Shown here: positions 1,585 through 46,214 of the stretch, in pieces | Position numbering within the stretch: the stretch's first letter is position 1 | How the letters are laid out: each line of letters begins with the position of its first letter | Source: Celeribacter litoreus | Lineage (GTDB): Bacteria; Pseudomonadota; Alphaproteobacteria; Rhodobacterales; Rhodobacteraceae | Assembly: GCF_020165855.1 (NCBI RefSeq) | Contig: NZ_JAIUFY010000005.1 | Span: 620,001 to 684,000 of the forward strand | Direction of reading: 5' to 3' | Length of the DNA stretch: 64,000 bases | Notes under the pieces: model-generated | The model's input: only the letters and a program-made list of their open reading frames with translations | What the model was told of the DNA's origin: nothing | Database searches by the model: none | Made by a program: the position numbers and the translations under genes

Positions 1585-3477
1585 TTAGCCCTTGGCGTAG
1601 CCGAGCCCCTGCAGGGCAACCTTGATCTCGTCGAGGATCGCCGGATCATCAATCGTTGCGGGCATCTTGTATTCCTGATTGTCCGCGATCTTCACCATCG
1701 TCCCACGCAGGATTTTGCCGGAGCGGGTTTTAGGAAGGCGATCAACGACACATGCCAGTTTGAAGGCCGCAACCGGGCCGATCTCGTTCCGGACGTCGCG
1801 TACGACTTCCTTGACGATCTCGGCGTGGTCACGCTCGCACCCTGCGTTGAGGCAGAGGAAACCGAGCGGGGATTGGCCTTTGAGCGCATCTGCGACACCA
1901 ATCACGGCGCATTCCGCGACGTCGGGGTGGGCGGAGAGGACTTCTTCCATTGCGCCGGTGGAGAGGCGGTGGCCCGCGACGTTAATCACGTCATCGGTGC
2001 GCGCCATGATGTAGACGTAGCCGTCCTCATCCTTGATGCCCGCGTCGCCTGTCTCGTAGTAGCCGGGGAAGGTGGTCAGATAGCTCTTCTTGTAGCGCTC
2101 TTCAGCGTTCCACAGCGTTTGCAAAGTGCCCGGGGGCAGCGGCAGCTTGATCGCAATGGCGCCCAGTTCGCCCGCTGGGACCGGATGGCCGGTCTCGTCG
2201 AGGATGTCGATGTCATAGCCGGGCATGGCGACTGAGGGCGAACCGATCTTGACCGGAAGCTCCTCGATGCCGAGCGGGTTGGCGGCAATTGCCCAACCGG
2301 TCTCTGTCTGCCACCAGTGGTCAATCACCGGCACGCCGAATTTTTCCTGAGCCCATTTGATCGTGTCAGGGTCCGCACGCTCACCGGCGAGGAAGATCGC
2401 CTGTAGGTCATGGAGTTTGTAGCGCTTGATCCACTCACCTGTCGGGTCCTCACGCTTGATCGCGCGAAGGGCGGTCGGGGCGGTGAAGAAGGATTTGACG
2501 CGCTGGTTCTGGATGATGCGCCAGAAGACACCTGCGTGCGGGGTGCCGACCGGCTTGCCCTCAAACACGATGGTCTGCGCGCCTTTGATCAGCGGGCCGT
2601 AGCAGATGTAGCTGTGACCCACGACCCAGCCCACGTCAGACGCAGCCCAGAAACGGTCGCCCACGTCGATGTTGTAGATGTTCTTCATGGTCCAGTGCAG
2701 AGCCACGAGATGCCCGCCCGTGGAGCGCACGACACCTTTCGGCGCACCGGTGGTGCCGGAGGTGTAGAGGATGTAGGCAGGATGGTTGCCCTCGACCGGC
2801 ACACATTCCGCCGGTTTCACACCGTACTGGAAGCCGTGCCAGCTAAAGTCGCGGCCTTCGATGAGTTTCGCGACTTCCTGCTCACGCTGGAAAATTACGC
2901 AGAACTCCGGCTTGTGGTCGGCGATTTCAATGGCTTCATCAAGAAGCGGTTTGTAGTGGACCACGCGGTTCGGCTCGAGACCACAGGACGCCGCGATGAT
3001 TGCTTTCGGGGTGCAGTCGTCGATGCGGACGGCCAATTCGTTGGCAGCAAAACCGCCGAAGACGACGGAGTGGACGGCGCCGATGCGGGCACAGGCGAGC
3101 ATGGCTTCGAGCGCTTCGGGGATCATCGGCATGTAGATGATGACGCGGTCGCCTTTTTCCACGCCGCGCATTTTGAGCGCGCCGGCGAGAGAGGACACGC
3201 GGTCCTGAAGCTCTTTGTAGGTGATGCCCTTGGTCGAGTGGGTGATCGGGCTTTCGTGCATGATGGCGATTTCATCGCCGCGACCGGCCTCAACGTGACG
3301 GTCCACCGCGTTGTAGCAGGTGTTCGTCAGCCCGTCGGAAAACCACTCGTAGATCGGTGCTTTCTCGTCAAACAGGGCTTTGGAAGGTTTCTTATACCAA
3401 TGCACCTCCTCGGCAGCTTGCATCCAGAAACCATCCGGGTCGGCTTTCCAGGCCTCATATACGTCTTTGTATGCCAC
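1585..3477 (-). CDS. prpE: Propionate-CoA ligase (propionyl-CoA synthetase)
   Basis: AMP-forming acyl-CoA synthetase that activates propionate to propionyl-CoA in the cytoplasm. The 630-residue protein carries the P-loop-like YTSGTTGAPKG at 238-248, the WWQTETGW adenylation motif near 390 and the C-terminal KTRSGKILRG, whose second lysine (residue 588) is the usual site of regulatory acetylation. The N-terminal block and the segment RSTGGHLVALHWTMKN fit PrpE better than acetyl-CoA synthetase Acs, but substrate preference cannot be proved from sequence. Upstream, about 160-220 bp before the start, lie TTTGCAAA-type elements like those bound by ScfR/PccR regulators of propionyl-CoA assimilation. 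It shares its terminator with nadK. Confidence 0.93.
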   Translation of the reverse strand: MAYKDVYEAWKADPDGFWMQAAEEVHWYKKPSKALFDEKAPIYEWFSDGLTNTCYNAVDRHVEAGRGDEIAIMHESPITHSTKGITYKELQDRVSSLAGALKMRGVEKGDRVIIYMPMIPEALEAMLACARIGAVHSVVFGGFAANELAVRIDDCTPKAIIAASCGLEPNRVVHYKPLLDEAIEIADHKPEFCVIFQREQEVAKLIEGRDFSWHGFQYGVKPAECVPVEGNHPAYILYTSGTTGAPKGVVRSTGGHLVALHWTMKNIYNIDVGDRFWAASDVGWVVGHSYICYGPLIKGAQTIVFEGKPVGTPHAGVFWRIIQNQRVKSFFTAPTALRAIKREDPTGEWIKRYKLHDLQAIFLAGERADPDTIKWAQEKFGVPVIDHWWQTETGWAIAANPLGIEELPVKIGSPSVAMPGYDIDILDETGHPVPAGELGAIAIKLPLPPGTLQTLWNAEERYKKSYLTTFPGYYETGDAGIKDEDGYVYIMARTDDVINVAGHRLSTGAMEEVLSAHPDVAECAVIGVADALKGQSPLGFLCLNAGCERDHAEIVKEVVRDVRNEIGPVAAFKLACVVDRLPKTRSGKILRGTMVKIADNQEYKMPATIDDPAILDEIKVALQGLGYAKG

Positions 3478-3636: not shown

Positions 3637-3697
3637 TTCGCAAACACATGCAGAAAAGCAGTTTGCAAACTCTTGTTTTTGCAGCCTGTATTGCAAA
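3637..3697 (-). promoter_or_regulatory. TTTGCAAA-type elements upstream of prpE (candidate ScfR/PccR-family operator)
   Basis: In the prpE-maeB gap there is a perfect TTTGCAAA at 3662-3669 and a paired element, TTTGCAGC (3678-3685), four bases, then ATTGCAAA (3690-3697). The pair matches the TTTGCAAA-N4-TTTGCAAA pattern I recall for the PccR regulator of Rhodobacter sphaeroides at 13 of 16 positions. A further TTCGCAAA lies at 3637-3644. Assignment to prpE rather than to the end of maeB is inference from position and function. Confidence 0.5.
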
Positions 3698-40317: not shown

Positions 40318-41076
40318 ATGGTGGGCAGGTCGTCGGATGTCATGTCTTCGATGGTAAAGGGCCTTCGGGTTCTGGAATGTTTCGGTGCGGGCACTCCGAA
40401 ACTCACCATCACAGATGCGGCGCAGATGACTGGTCTGGATCGTGCGACCGCGCGGCGTTGCCTGCTCACGCTGCATCACGCCGGATACGCCGATTATGAC
40501 GGAAAGTTCTTTACGCTGACTCCTCGCGCGATGCGCCTCGGAATGGGGGCGATTGCCTCGTTGCCCCTGCCGCAGATTGTCCAGCCGTGGCTCGATCAAC
40601 TGACCGAGCAGATCGGACAGAGCTGTTCTGTCTCCATCCTTGACGGCACAGAGATCGTCTACCTCGCCCGCGCGGCGCAAAAGCGGGTGATGTCCATCGG
40701 CCTCATGCCTGGCTCGCGGCTACCCGCGCATTGCACGTCCATGGGGCGTGTCCTGCTCGGGGCGCTGGCTCCGGATGAGGCGCGCGCGATCTTGGAAGAG
40801 TCCGATCTCAGTCCGCGGACGAAATACAGCGTGACCGACCCGGACGCGATCATGCAGAAGGTCGAAGATGCGCGCACGAATGGCTATGCAATCATTGATC
40901 AAGAGGTTGAGATTGGACTGCGGTCGATTGCCGTGCCTCTCACCGACGGGCGCGGGAACATTGTTGCGGCGCTCAATACAGGCATGGCTGCCACTCAAGA
41001 TGATCCCGAGGCGCTCGTTCAGGCGTATCTGCCCAAGCTCCTCACCGTTCAATCCGGATTGAAGCGGATGCTTTAA
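40318..41076 (+). CDS. IclR-family transcriptional regulator (PcaU/PobR-like)
   Basis: A 252-residue regulator. An N-terminal helix-turn-helix covers about residues 9-70 (MVKGLRVLECFGAG, ITDAAQMTGLDRATARRCLLTLHHAGYA), followed by the IclR effector domain (TSMGRVLLGALAPDEARAIL, YAIIDQEVEIGLRSIAVPL). The sequence style fits the aromatic-acid branch that activates protocatechuate or hydroxybenzoate operons. The start at 40318 has GAGGGGAAAG upstream. It lies 106 bp after marR in the same direction and its end overlaps bioN by four bases on the opposite strand. Confidence 0.9.
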   Translation: MVGRSSDVMSSMVKGLRVLECFGAGTPKLTITDAAQMTGLDRATARRCLLTLHHAGYADYDGKFFTLTPRAMRLGMGAIASLPLPQIVQPWLDQLTEQIGQSCSVSILDGTEIVYLARAAQKRVMSIGLMPGSRLPAHCTSMGRVLLGALAPDEARAILEESDLSPRTKYSVTDPDAIMQKVEDARTNGYAIIDQEVEIGLRSIAVPLTDGRGNIVAALNTGMAATQDDPEALVQAYLPKLLTVQSGLKRML

Positions 41077-41666
41077 TCGAGCGAGCGGGCCTCGATCGCC
41101 TCTGCGATTTCGTCGGCGTTTTTGAGAATGCGGACGATGAGTGGCACGAGAAGGGCGACCATATTCCGGTCCAGCCCGCGCGCACGCTGGGCTTCTCTGA
41201 CCTCTTCGAACTGGCTCCGGATCATCGGAATGAACCGCCACACCAACGACATCGCGAGCGCGATTTTGTCGCGGGGCACCCACGCGGGGGCTTTCGAGAG
41301 TAGGGCAAGGATGCCGTCTGTGAAGGCGCTCGCTGTTGTGGTGTAGGTGACGAGACCCGCTGCTGCCAAAAGCGCGACAAAGCGCAGTGTGACGTAGGTC
41401 GCGGTCCCAAGATCCGCGAGCCAAATCTGAACGGCGAAAATGATCGCCAGCACGAAGAGCGCAGGGCGGATCGCTGCGAAGGCATGAGACGCGTTAAGCC
41501 CCGCCATCATGTATCCGACAGCAGCAAGTACCAAGGCGATGACGAGCGTGAGCGGGTGCGCGACAATAAAGACCGTGGAGCAAAAGGCGAAAAGTGCCGC
41601 AAGTTTCCAAGCGGGTCTCGCGCTATGGAGCGGGCTGTCTCCGGGGATGTAGAGTTCTGTCAGCAT
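41073..41666 (-). CDS. bioN: Biotin ECF transporter transmembrane subunit
   Basis: The T-component (EcfT-like) of the biotin energy-coupling-factor transporter, 197 residues with about five spans. The coupling-helix motifs are seen in the C-terminal half: REAQRARGLDRN (EAxxARG-type) and AEAIEARSLD at the end. It overlaps bioM by seven bases. The bioY-bioM-bioN order with all three genes tight together supports the biotin assignment over other ECF systems. Confidence 0.92.
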   Translation of the reverse strand: MLTELYIPGDSPLHSARPAWKLAALFAFCSTVFIVAHPLTLVIALVLAAVGYMMAGLNASHAFAAIRPALFVLAIIFAVQIWLADLGTATYVTLRFVALLAAAGLVTYTTTASAFTDGILALLSKAPAWVPRDKIALAMSLVWRFIPMIRSQFEEVREAQRARGLDRNMVALLVPLIVRILKNADEIAEAIEARSLD

Positions 41667-42325
41667 TCGCGCGCCGCGCGATAGGCCGGGATGACCATGT
41701 CCGGCGACCCGTCTTGGGAAATGCACCCGTCTTCAATCAGTAGAACGCGGTCAAATCCCATGAGCAAGTCAAGATCGTGGGATACGACAACAGCCGGTTG
41801 CGAGAGCGTTCCAAGGAGCCGCATAAAGCGGGTCTTGTTGCGCAGATCGAGAAGGGTGGTCGGTTCGTCGAACACAATCAACTCGGGCTGGGTCACGAGA
41901 ACGCCCGCGAGCGCGACAAGCTGTTTCTCGCCACCGGACAGCTCATGCGTCAAGCGTGTGCGCAGGTGGCCGATGCCCAGTTCTTCGAGAACGGCCTGAA
42001 TGCGCGCATCCGTATCGTCTTTCGACAGCTTTCTGGATTTGAGGCCGAAGGCGAGGTCTTCCTCGACCATCGGATAGACGATCTGATTGTCTGGATTTTG
42101 AAACACAAAGCCAACGTGGTGGCGCAGATCGTCGGTGTGATCTTTGAAACGAACGCTTCCGGTGTTCGGTTTTTGAAGGCCGTTAAAGAGGCGCAACAGG
42201 GTGCTTTTGCCGGACCCGTTGTCGCCAATGATGCCGATGCGATGCTCTGACAAGGTGAGGGAAATCTCGCGGAGGACATCTCGTCCCCCGCGCGTAACAC
42301 TTACCTTGTCAAAGATCATTGTCAT
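41660..42325 (-). CDS. bioM: Biotin ECF transporter ATPase subunit
   Basis: ABC ATPase powering biotin uptake. The 221-residue protein has Walker A GDNGSGKST at 34-42, the Q-loop region VGFVFQNPDNQIV typical of ECF ATPases, the signature LSGGEKQL near 138, Walker B LIVFDEPTTLLD and the switch histidine in VVVSHD. It lies five bases after bioY and overlaps bioN. A single ATPase, as here, is usual for BioMNY systems. Confidence 0.93.
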   Translation of the reverse strand: MTMIFDKVSVTRGGRDVLREISLTLSEHRIGIIGDNGSGKSTLLRLFNGLQKPNTGSVRFKDHTDDLRHHVGFVFQNPDNQIVYPMVEEDLAFGLKSRKLSKDDTDARIQAVLEELGIGHLRTRLTHELSGGEKQLVALAGVLVTQPELIVFDEPTTLLDLRNKTRFMRLLGTLSQPAVVVSHDLDLLMGFDRVLLIEDGCISQDGSPDMVIPAYRAAREC

Positions 42326-42330
42326 GGCGA

Positions 42331-42879
42331 TCAGGCAGCTTGGCCGATGATCGGGTAGGTGCGCTTCACCGTGACCATCACGCCTGCGGCGATCAGGGCC
42401 TTTACGATGTCACCCGGAATGTAGGTCACGGAACCGATGAAGGCTTTGCCGATCGGAACGCCTGCGGAGAAGGTGATCCACGGAATGCCGATGGCGTACA
42501 TGACCACAATGCCGCCTGCGACACAGATGAGAGTCGCGGAGACGAAGGACAGGCCGTTCCAGAATTTCTCGGTCATCCAGCCGATTGCGAATGCGGCGAT
42601 AACCCAACCGAACAGGAAGCCGGCCGTTGCGCCGAAGAAGACGGAGAAACCGCCACGACCACCGGCAAGAAGCGGCAGGCCGATTGCGACGAGGACGAGC
42701 AGGAGGATCAGAGACAGTGCGCCACGTTTCGCGCCGAGGATGCCACCAGCGAGCATAACGCCGAGGGATTGCGCCGTAATTGGCACGGGAAGGACCGGAA
42801 AAGTGATGGGCGGAACGACCGCCAAAACGGCAGTGAGTGCGGTAAATAGGGCAATGAGAACGATATCGCGCGTGGTCAT
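42331..42879 (-). CDS. bioY: Biotin ECF transporter substrate-binding subunit
   Basis: The S-component that binds biotin in the membrane, 182 residues and six spans. The family signature is clear: PVPITAQSLGVMLAGGILGAKRGALSLILLLVLVAIGLPLLAGGRGG (about 30-76), with the TAQ and GGRGG motifs. The start at 42879 follows a long 217-bp leader that holds TTTGCAAA-type elements. No canonical BioR box (TTATNNATAA) was found. It leads the bioYMN operon. Confidence 0.95.
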   Translation of the reverse strand: MTTRDIVLIALFTALTAVLAVVPPITFPVLPVPITAQSLGVMLAGGILGAKRGALSLILLLVLVAIGLPLLAGGRGGFSVFFGATAGFLFGWVIAAFAIGWMTEKFWNGLSFVSATLICVAGGIVVMYAIGIPWITFSAGVPIGKAFIGSVTYIPGDIVKALIAAGVMVTVKRTYPIIGQAA

Positions 42880-42999
42880 GAGTAGTCCCTCGAGTTGTGC
42901 GGCCCTTGTTGGGCTTTGGTTGTGAGGGGTTTGATAGACATGTGTTCCGCGTCTGGTAAAGCCCTTTTCCCGCAAAGTTTCGAGACTTTCGTACGGGTT

Positions 43000-43070
43000 T
43001 TTGCAAAACGGCACCGGAAAGTTTTCAAACCTCGGGGGCAACGGGCTCAGATTGCAAAGAAATTTGCGAA
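43000..43070 (-). promoter_or_regulatory. TTTGCAAA-type elements upstream of bioY (candidate ScfR/PccR-family operator)
   Basis: ATTGCAAA (43051-43058), four bases, TTTGCGAA (43063-43070) matches the TTTGCAAA-N4-TTTGCAAA pattern at 14 of 16 positions. A separate perfect TTTGCAAA is at 43000-43007. The arrangement (pair plus single copy nearer the gene) mirrors the region before prpE. Confidence 0.5.
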
Positions 43071-43096: not shown

Positions 43097-44365
43097 TCAG
43101 GTTTGAAGTCTTCTGACTGAGAACAGGCTGAGACCCGCCATAACGCCTGCGGTGGCCAAACAGAGGCTCAATCCGCCAATTTGGTAGGACAGTCCGGAGA
43201 GCAAAGTCCCGAGCAATCTCCCCGCCGCATTGGCCATGTAGTAGAAGCCGACATCAAGCGTCACGCGCTCCGCGCCCGCGAAGGCGAGGATGAGATAGGA
43301 GTGCACGGAGGAGTTCACCGCAAACACAAATCCAAAGAGTAAGAGCCCCGCGACGAGCGACAGCGTGAGCCAAAGCGCAGGATCACCCGCGATGAGCGAC
43401 AGCGCGGCGAGGACGAAGGGGATTGGCGTGAGATATCCGGCCCAGCGGCTCGCGACACGGACGGTGGCGTGCTCGTCCGTAGTCTTCGATTTGAGGAGCT
43501 TCGGCGCGAGACCCTGCACCAATCCATAGGCCATGATCCAGAGCGCCATGAAGCCACCGGTCAAAAAGAACGCCTGACGCGCGCCCTCGGGTGTTCCGTC
43601 AGAGAGCACATGCTCGAAATAGATCGGGAGGCCGACGACGAACCAGACATCCCGTGCCCCGAAAAGGAACATGCGCGCGAGGCTCAGTTTGTTGATCCGC
43701 GGGTCTTTGGAGATGACGGCAGAGAACTTTGTGCCTTTTTTGCCGGTCGGCAGGCCTTTGGGCAGGAAGAGCGCGACTGCAATGAAGATCGCCGCGAGCA
43801 CAATGGCCATGCCCCAGACCGCCGCCTTGAACCCCGCGAGCGCGAGGAGCGCCGCACCGATGAAGAAGCCGAGGCCTTTGATTGCGTTCTTTGAACCTGT
43901 GAGCACTGCAACCCACTTGAACAAAGTCCCGTCGCCTTTCGGGGCGAGGAGTTTGACGGCGGACTTCGACGACATCTTCGCGAGGTCTTTGGCCACGCCG
44001 GACGCGCCTTGCACCGCCATGACGTAGACAACCGATGCCCCGACGGACCATGCGGGATCGAGTTGGGACAGGGCAATGAGCGCAACGATTTGTATCCCCA
44101 ACCCGCCAAAGAGCGTGGAGGCGAGACCGAACCGCGCTGCGAGCCATCCGGCCGAGAGGTTCGTCACGATGCCCGCAATCTCATAGAGCAGGAACAGCCA
44201 CGCCAGTTGCAACGGGGAAAACCCGAGGCCGTTGAAGTGCAGCAGCACCAACATCCGCAACGCGCCGTCCGAGAGCATGAAGGCCCAATAGGCGGCGGTC
44301 ACGGCCATATAGGCGCGGAGCGGGTTTCCGGCCGGTGCGTCTGGCGTAGCTGGCGAGGTCATCAC
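43097..44365 (-). CDS. arsJ: ArsJ-type MFS exporter of 1-arseno-3-phosphoglycerate
   Basis: A 422-residue major facilitator with about twelve spans, resembling Ars[27 protein letters not shown] at the start, [43 protein letters not shown], and [31 protein letters not shown] near the end. With the adjacent GAPDH it gives pentavalent arsenate resistance: GAPDH makes 1-arseno-3-phosphoglycerate and ArsJ exports it, where it decays to arsenate. It overlaps the GAPDH stop by four bases. Confidence 0.92.
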
Positions 44366-45372
44366 ATTTGCCCTGCGACCATGCGGGCGATGTCAGCGAA
44401 GCGGCAGGAGTAGCCCCACTCGTTGTCATACCATGCGTAGATTTTCACCTGCGTGTCGTTGATCACCATGGTGGATTGCGCGTCAATGATGGAGCTGCGT
44501 GGATCATTCACGTAGTCGGTGGAGACGAGCGGACGGGTCTCATAACCGAGGATGCCAGAAAGCTCGCCTTCGGACGCGGCTTTGAAGAGTGCGTTGACCT
44601 CTTCGGCGGTGGTCGGGCGCTCCACTTCGAACACGCAGTCGGTGATGGACGCGTTCAGGAGCGGCACGCGGACGGCATGACCGTTCAACCGGCCTTTGAG
44701 TTCCGGATAGATCAGCGTGATTGCCGTGGCCGAACCGGTCGTCGTCGGGATCAGGTTCATCGACGCGGCACGCGCGCGACGCATGTCTTTCGACGGGCGG
44801 TCCACAATGGTCTGGGTGTTGGTAATGTCGTGGATTGTCGTGATCGAGCCATGCTTGATCCCGAGGTTCTCGTGGATCACCTTCACCACAGGCGCGAGGC
44901 AGTTTGTGGTGCAGGACGCTGCCGTCACGAGATCATGTTCGGACGCATCATAGAGATCGTGGTTTACCCCGTAGACGAGGTTGAGCGCGCCGCCGTCTTT
45001 CACGGGGGCAGACACCACGACCTTTTTCACGCCTGCGGCATAATATGGGGCGATTTTTGCTTCGGTTTTGAAGACGCCCGTGCAGTCGATGACCATGTCG
45101 ACACCCATCTCGGCGAGGGGGAGGTCTTCGATCTTGGACTGACGGGTCAGGGCCATCTTGGTGCCGTTGACCGTCAGGCTGTCTGCGTCATGCGAAATAT
45201 CTGCCGCCCACTTGCCATGCACGGAGTCAAACTCAAGCAGGAGTGCATGCTGCTCCGCATCACCTGCGAGGTCGTTGATCAAGACGATCTGCTCGCCCAG
45301 TCCGCGGTCAAAGAGGTCGCGTAGCGCGAGTTTTCCGATGCGGCCGAGGCCGTTGAGGGCGATTTTAGGCAT
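44362..45372 (-). CDS. gap: ArsJ-associated glyceraldehyde-3-phosphate dehydrogenase
   Basis: GAPDH of 336 residues with NAD-binding [13 protein letters not shown], the catalytic SCTTNCLAP (Cys154), His181 in [10 protein letters not shown] and the C-terminal [15 protein letters not shown]. In the arsenic operon it forms 1-arseno-3-phosphoglycerate from arsenate and glyceraldehyde 3-phosphate. Its sequence differs in style from housekeeping GapA (shorter insert after the NAD site, [14 protein letters not shown]), consistent with the ars-linked clade. It lies 11 bp after the ArsR-ArsC fusion and overlaps arsJ. Confidence 0.93.
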
Positions 45373-45383
45373 GGGAGGTCCTT

Positions 45384-46214
45384 TTAGATCGTAGAGAGCG
45401 TGTCAATTTCGGTTTGAACCGCGAGACGGTCGAGTTGATCGACGGGCAGCGCGGTCAGGGTTTCGATCCGGCGGCGCAGGCCGTCATAGGTCTTGGCGAA
45501 GGCGAGCGCCTTTTCGGATTCGCTGCCTTCGACAGCGACGGGGTCGGGGAGGCCCCAATGCGCAGAGAAGGCAGGGCCAGCCCATGTCGCGCAGTCTTCC
45601 TGGGCTGCCGTGTCGCAGACCGTGAACACGAAATCGAAGCCGTTCGGGTGGAGGGCTTTGACCTGATCGATGTCTTTCGACCAGAGACCGAGCGTGTCGT
45701 GTCCTTCGCGTTCGAGCAGGCTGCGCGCGCGTGCATTCAGCTCGCCCGCCGGACGGGTGCCTGCCGACGCGGCGATGAATTTCTCGCCGCCAAGATCGCG
45801 CAGGAGGGCCTCTGCGATGATGGAGCGTGCGGAGTTGCCGGAGCAGAGGAAGAGCACGCGGTAGGGGCGGGTCGGTCCGTCGCCGCGTGCCGCGAGAGGC
45901 GCGCACACCTCTGGGCGACCACGGCAGCAGTCGTTGACGAGATACCCGACCAAGCCTTCAGCCGTGCGCAGTTCCACCTTGTAATAGAGCGAACGCCCGT
46001 CACGCGAGGCAGAGATGAGTCCCGCCGCGTTCAGGTCCGCGAGATAGCCCGAAAGGGTGTTCGGCTTTAGTCCGAGCGCATCCGCAATCTCGGAGGGCCG
46101 CACGGGGCGCGGGGCGAACCGCATCAGGAGCCGGAAGACCGAAAGGCGACCGGGGTGCCCGAGGGCGGCAAATGCCGTGGTGGCGATGTCTGAGTCGAAC
46201 TTATTTAATTCCAT
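45384..46214 (-). CDS. ArsR repressor - ArsC arsenate reductase fusion
   Basis: A 276-residue fusion. Residues 1-105 are an ArsR winged helix ([40 protein letters not shown]) ending in the As(III) site [11 protein letters not shown] (Cys96, Cys97, Cys104). Residues 118-260 are a low-molecular-weight phosphatase-type arsenate reductase with the loop CSGNSARS (Cys124, Arg130) and the redox cysteines in [13 protein letters not shown] (Cys200, Cys208). The product would sense As(III) it makes itself. The start ATG directly abuts an ATTCGCGAAT palindrome and has no ribosome site nearby, suggesting a leaderless or unusual start. It leads the arsRC-gap-arsJ operon. Confidence 0.92.

Follow-up and report, generated by a model that had tools for sequence, protein, structure and literature searches.

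Conserved octamers upstream of bioYMN in Celeribacter suggest a place for biotin uptake in a PccR (ScfR family) regulon

The window is a stretch of 64,000 nucleotides of DNA from Celeribacter litoreus. On its minus strand lie three adjacent genes predicted from their Pfam domains to encode a bioYMN-type ECF biotin transporter. These are bioY, the S component (42331..42879; Pfam BioY, 5.2e-35), a bioM-like ECF ATPase gene (41660..42325; Pfam ABC_tran, with ECF ATPase models as the best NCBIfam matches, below their cut-offs) and a bioN-like T component gene (41073..41726; Pfam CbiQ, 1e-14). The gene upstream of bioY is arsJ (NCBIfam MFS_ArsJ, above cut-off). A promoter-like sequence on the minus strand, TTTACC-N18-TATCAA, precedes the start of bioY, with the predicted -35 hexamer TTTACC at 42955..42960 and the predicted -10 hexamer TATCAA at 42931..42936. 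Directly upstream of bioYMN and on the same strand, positions 43097-46214 hold arsJ, a glyceraldehyde-3-phosphate dehydrogenase gene and a fused HTH/low-molecular-weight phosphatase gene. Transcription from this arsenic-type set could possibly read through into bioY.

Between arsJ and the promoter, 71 bp of the bioY leader contain four octamers resembling TTTGCAAA, of which one is exact and the others each carry a single mismatch. The proximal half-site (43000..43007) is the exact and palindromic TTTGCAAA, which ends 39 bp before the -35 hexamer. The middle half-site (43022..43029), 22 bp from the proximal one, reads TTTTCAAA on the plus strand and TTTGAAAA on the minus strand (7/8). The distal half-site (43051..43058) is ATTGCAAA and the outermost (43063..43070) is TTTGCGAA, both on the plus strand and each with one mismatch. 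Together they form an N4-spaced (X4) pair, ATTGCAAA-GAAA-TTTGCGAA, which matches at 14/16 positions (43051-43070). This pair and the single perfect octamer had both been pointed out in a preliminary description of the sequence, and each is present. With at least two neighbouring TTTGCAAA-like octamers, the pattern by which a PccR/ScfR site is recognized here, the leader would count as a putative site of this type.

The same description considered the arrangement to be that of the prpE leader. The gene for propionate-CoA ligase, prpE, lies on the minus strand at 1585..3477 (best NCBIfam match propionate--CoA ligase, 6.8e-216, below cut-off). Its half-site cluster at 3637..3697 comprises TTCGCAAA at 3637, TTTGCAAA at 3662 and ATTGCAAA at 3690, and a 13/16 X4 pair is found at 3678-3697. 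The order is broadly alike in both leaders, with the exact octamer proximal to the gene and the pair farther away, but the spacings are not the same. Judged by eye, half-site spacing differs among genes from about 9 to 27 bp.

Set against chance, the counts in the window are by themselves only suggestive. The X4 pattern with at most three mismatches was found twice where 0.21 was expected, a number reached by 2/100 shuffles. The bare octamer was found three times where 0.96 was expected (reached by 6/100 shuffles), and one of the three falls within the prpE gene (2118). Clusters were scored from octamers with at most one mismatch inside 80 bp, an exact octamer counting 2 and one with a mismatch 1. 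Throughout the 864 kb scored (40 stretches of 20 kb and the window), a score of 4 or higher occurred only at bioY (5) and prpE (4). None of the 2640 background 300-bp windows from the 40 same-genome stretches of 20 kb reached a score of 3. Clustering relative to this background, together with conservation in relatives, indicates that the octamer sites are more than chance. A chance origin of the bioY octamers was ruled out by shuffled leaders and by the genome background.

Conservation was followed in 20 genomes filed under one genus, of which 14 have bioY of the window's type. The promoter hexamers are retained in all 14 leaders with a spacer of 18 throughout, the -10 hexamer of the relatives being TATCAC (10) or TAACAC (3). 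Loss of the motif before bioY in relatives would have spoken against the preliminary description; the exact octamer TTTGCAAA is present in 12/14 of these leaders, where it is the top 8-mer (1000 shuffles: mean 0.27, maximum 3), and the 12 leaders are not independent because close relatives are among them. The gap between octamer and -35 is 27-28, 39 or 45-46 bp. A second core (TTTGCA, TTTGAA or GTTGCA), 12-13 or 21-22 bp upstream of the octamer, and a third core (TTTGCA), 49-52 bp upstream, each occur in 12/12 octamer-bearing leaders, both having been picked after inspection of those leaders. A core at the distance of the outermost half-site (43063..43070) is found among these leaders in the own genome only. 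The 14/16 X4 pair belongs to the own genome, and relatives instead have cores at 12-22 and 49-52 bp. The best conserved element of the bioY leaders is the exact octamer with two cores, not the X4 pair.

The two exceptions were inspected by eye. In G005 the upstream gene ends right before the bioY promoter, so that the boxed stretch is absent, and in G008 other DNA lies upstream of bioY. PccR is present in both. Boxes are found at prpE, pyruvate carboxylase and CoA-transferase genes in G005, and at prpE and CoA-transferase genes in G008.

The genome holds 48 exact octamers, and the sequence around each was examined; clusters lacking an exact octamer were sought in the stretches that were read. 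Clusters with a score of at least 3 lie before a CoA-transferase gene (6), bioY (5), prpE (4), pccR, pccB and a pyruvate carboxylase gene (3 each), and at L236 and L255. The densest has three exact octamers within 59 bp (L268:1986-2068), before a gene for a CoA-transferase of the succinyl-CoA:acetate type, which is likely to be a further PccR target. The cluster at pyruvate carboxylase implies a gene set wider than propionate. No evident tie to propionate or biotin was seen for the L236 cluster, which falls within the beginning of a called CBS/DUF294 gene, or for the L255 cluster, near a DsbA-like gene. The remaining exact octamers fall within called genes or stand alone ahead of unrelated genes such as dnaA. 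Many pyruvate carboxylase leaders, the own one included (L243:1795-2040), also share CTGCA-NN-GCAGAA close to the gene, as seen by eye. This resembles a PhaR box, CTGC-N3-GCAG.

In 400-bp leaders of the same genus, scores of at least 3 were found before prpE in 19/19 genomes with a match (a paralogue in G013 scored 0), of at least 4 before the CoA-transferase gene in 14/14, and of at least 3 before the pyruvate carboxylase gene in 13/20. An exact octamer precedes pccR in 19/19 genomes. The pccB leaders score at least 2 in 19/20, G006 scoring 1, and the best cluster of G003 consists of two one-mismatch octamers. In six genomes without bioY of the window's type (G002, G006, G009, G010, G011, G017), no CoA-transferase match was found and no pyruvate carboxylase leader scores above 2.

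The candidate regulator is encoded about 70 kb from bioY, near the propionyl-CoA carboxylase genes. The gene order is pccR (L074:9770-11167), an MFS gene (L074:11246-12466), pccB (L074:12698-14230) and pccA (L074:16548-18545). The protein contains HTH, IrrE-like and C-terminal ScfR domains, the composition of an ScfR regulator, and was named PccR because of its gene neighbourhood and its family. It matches the solved structures of M. tuberculosis PrpR (phmmer, 1.2e-89) and, below cut-off, the NCBIfam RamB model. PccR matches were obtained in 19/20 same-genus genomes. Outside the genus, 20 hand-picked genomes from 20 genera of the same family were compared, and the exact octamer occurs before pccR in 20/20 and before pccB in 16/17 found. 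When no motif was chosen beforehand, TTTGCAAA was the top 8-mer in the 37 pccR and pccB leaders of these genera (36/37). As the commonest octamer before pccR and pccB in 20 other genera, it is very likely to be the site of PccR (ScfR family).

The family-wide picture at bioY is a narrower one. A cluster scoring at least 3 within 300 bp was found at 21/150 bioY loci, which are those of the 12 same-genus genomes and nine Celeribacter records matching nine of them. The family survey took in 70 of the 93 bioY places found (hand count). For bioMNY operons the 300-bp test at bioY is weak, because those 300 bp fall inside the gene preceding bioY. The octamer was found within 300 bp of bioM in 0/16 leaders of bioMNY-type operons of relatives. 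The same-genus genome G002, of the bioMNY type, has a score-3 cluster upstream of bioM, some 340 bp from the first start codon in that frame. By eye, its octamer pair (L365:1902-1950) sits between a divergent photolyase-like gene and bioM and may be an independent site. In seven family genomes (G110, G130, G123, G053, G070, G154, G140), bioMNY and pccR were found by hand to share a contig at a distance of about 15-22 kb; four of these loci were read in sequence, and the proximity is given no weight in the argument. The putative link between octamer and bioY has been seen only in Celeribacter genomes whose genes run in the order bioYMN, and not elsewhere in Rhodobacteraceae. Of the co-occurrence across the family that the preliminary description proposed to check, the part concerning pccB holds in the genera sampled. 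The part concerning bioY holds in Celeribacter and was not seen in other genera, for which the test has little power at bioMNY operons.

A match to bioB (BATS domain, as in BioB) was not found in 18/20 same-genus genomes, the own included, with completeness at 99.63% for the own genome and 85% for G006. The two matches, in G008 (bioY unboxed) and G007 (bioY boxed), look by eye like biotin synthases. The contrast in G008 is a hint only, because G007 combines bioB with boxes. For C. indicus, bioB alone of the last four biotin genes is reported in the available part of one paper (PMC9561691). Since no bioB was found, import is the one source of biotin that can be seen, and the own organism probably relies on it.

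The consensus of the BioR box is TTATMKATAA. The best match to it in the own bioY leader has 3/10 mismatches, so the preliminary description was correct that no such box precedes bioY, there being none within two mismatches. BioR control of this leader was rejected on a palindrome with at least three mismatches. A second, distant bioY in G001 (L072, G001:C6:46900-48500) is preceded by a palindrome that by eye resembles a BioR box, and this genome may use the two kinds of control side by side.

The sites, their clustering and conservation, the promoter motif, the regulator gene and the lack of a bioB match in the own genome are computed features. From these we infer binding and activation by PccR at bioY, its ligand there and the physiological purpose. 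It is probable that the bioYMN promoter of Celeribacter belongs to the PccR regulon, with PccR sensing acyl-CoA and activating biotin import alongside the propionate genes. PccR, an XRE-type ScfR protein, would bind the array of TTTGCAAA-like octamers in the bioY leader, whose centres are estimated to precede the transcription start (assumed to lie 7 bp after the -10 hexamer) by about 79, 101 and 130 bp. On sensing acyl-CoA, most likely propionyl-CoA, it would activate transcription of bioYMN. Biotin import would then rise with propionyl-CoA carboxylase, pyruvate carboxylase, propionate-CoA ligase and the CoA-transferase, as a feed-forward supply of cofactor. An activating role is favoured because the octamers lie upstream of the -35 hexamer, PccR is described as an activator of the propionyl-CoA carboxylase pathway, and the sites are shared by propionate genes and the genes of two biotin carboxylases. 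The preliminary proposal that a propionate regulator acts on biotin uptake gains support from the conserved octamer, which also precedes pccR, pccB, prpE and the CoA-transferase gene, and from the regulator gene near pccB, which point to such control. A broader reading, in which demand-driven import under PccR, matched to the two biotin carboxylases, replaces biotin sensing in the absence of bioB and was recruited within one genus, we judge evenly poised between right and wrong.

PccR might also bind the bioY sites as a repressor or through another acyl-CoA of acetate metabolism or the ethylmalonyl-CoA pathway, so that bioY would track acetate or central carbon and not propionate. Clusters common to pyruvate carboxylase and the succinyl-CoA:acetate-type transferase agree with another acyl-CoA, as does the response of Paracoccus RamB to esters of the ethylmalonyl-CoA pathway, described in the available part of PMC10370305. 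Repression fits poorly with boxes that leave the promoter uncovered, and the same text describes R. sphaeroides PccR as an activator; this reading is on the whole unlikely. Less probable still is control of bioY by another regulator of the same octamer. The own genome does encode a second ScfR-domain protein (L075:6383-7723), and some relatives have extra ScfR paralogues at about 43-44% identity. This second protein, however, is a far weaker match (41 bits vs 234 for PccR) with a histidine kinase gene nearby, and the octamer accompanies pccR and pccB in 20 other genera.

It is hard to credit that biotin itself controls bioY through BioR or another biotin sensor, the octamers being incidental. 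The bioYB operon of Paracoccus denitrificans is under BioR, but according to the available part of the same report bioMNY lacks a preceding BioR site in both P. denitrificans and A. tumefaciens (PMC4554459). The mismatches in the own leader and an octamer conservation at bioY far above that of shuffles also argue against it, and activation by PccR remains the preferred reading.

Vitamin transporters are normally understood as responding to their vitamin. In Celeribacter a carbon-source regulator seems to govern the import of a cofactor needed by the enzymes of its own pathway, in bacteria that probably depend on biotin made by others. If true, marine bacteria would have their dependence on a vitamin tied to the use of propionate and acetate, and Celeribacter would offer a directly testable example of a regulon that has expanded within a single genus.

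Similar to BioR control in alphaproteobacteria, where BioR governs the bioY operon in Paracoccus (PMC4554459, in part available), the proposed system would regulate biotin uptake. BioR is, in contrast, a GntR repressor with another palindrome, which was not found in the own bioY leader. RamB of Paracoccus denitrificans is also of the ScfR family, with a site of two boxes ahead of the operon that it targets, but it controls the glyoxylate cycle and its boxes are 18 bp apart (PMC10370305, in part available). The comparison concerns family and layout, and the octamer TTTGCAAA is absent from the main text of that paper. M. tuberculosis PrpR, another ScfR protein, has a footprint containing TTTGCAAA and TTTGCgAA (PMC3420887). 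It differs in activating methylcitrate-cycle genes and icl1 and in having octamers one base apart, and a biotin target is not mentioned in the available part of that report. A close parallel is the PccR regulon of Rhodobacter (Cereibacter) sphaeroides, whose regulator belongs to the same family and is likewise encoded near pccB. That regulon reportedly has TTTGCAAA-type sites with an X4 motif before pccB. PccR of R. sphaeroides is described, in the available parts of two papers, as an activator of the propionyl-CoA carboxylase pathway (PMC10370305, PMC12632250). Unlike the regulon as reported there, bioYMN, pyruvate carboxylase, prpE and CoA-transferase genes appear to share the sites in Celeribacter. 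A link between PccR or ScfR and bioY was not met in the literature searched, the founding PccR paper lying outside that scope, and to this extent the preliminary view that the link is undescribed holds. The regulator family and the type of site are already known, and biotin uptake as their target is, provisionally, new.
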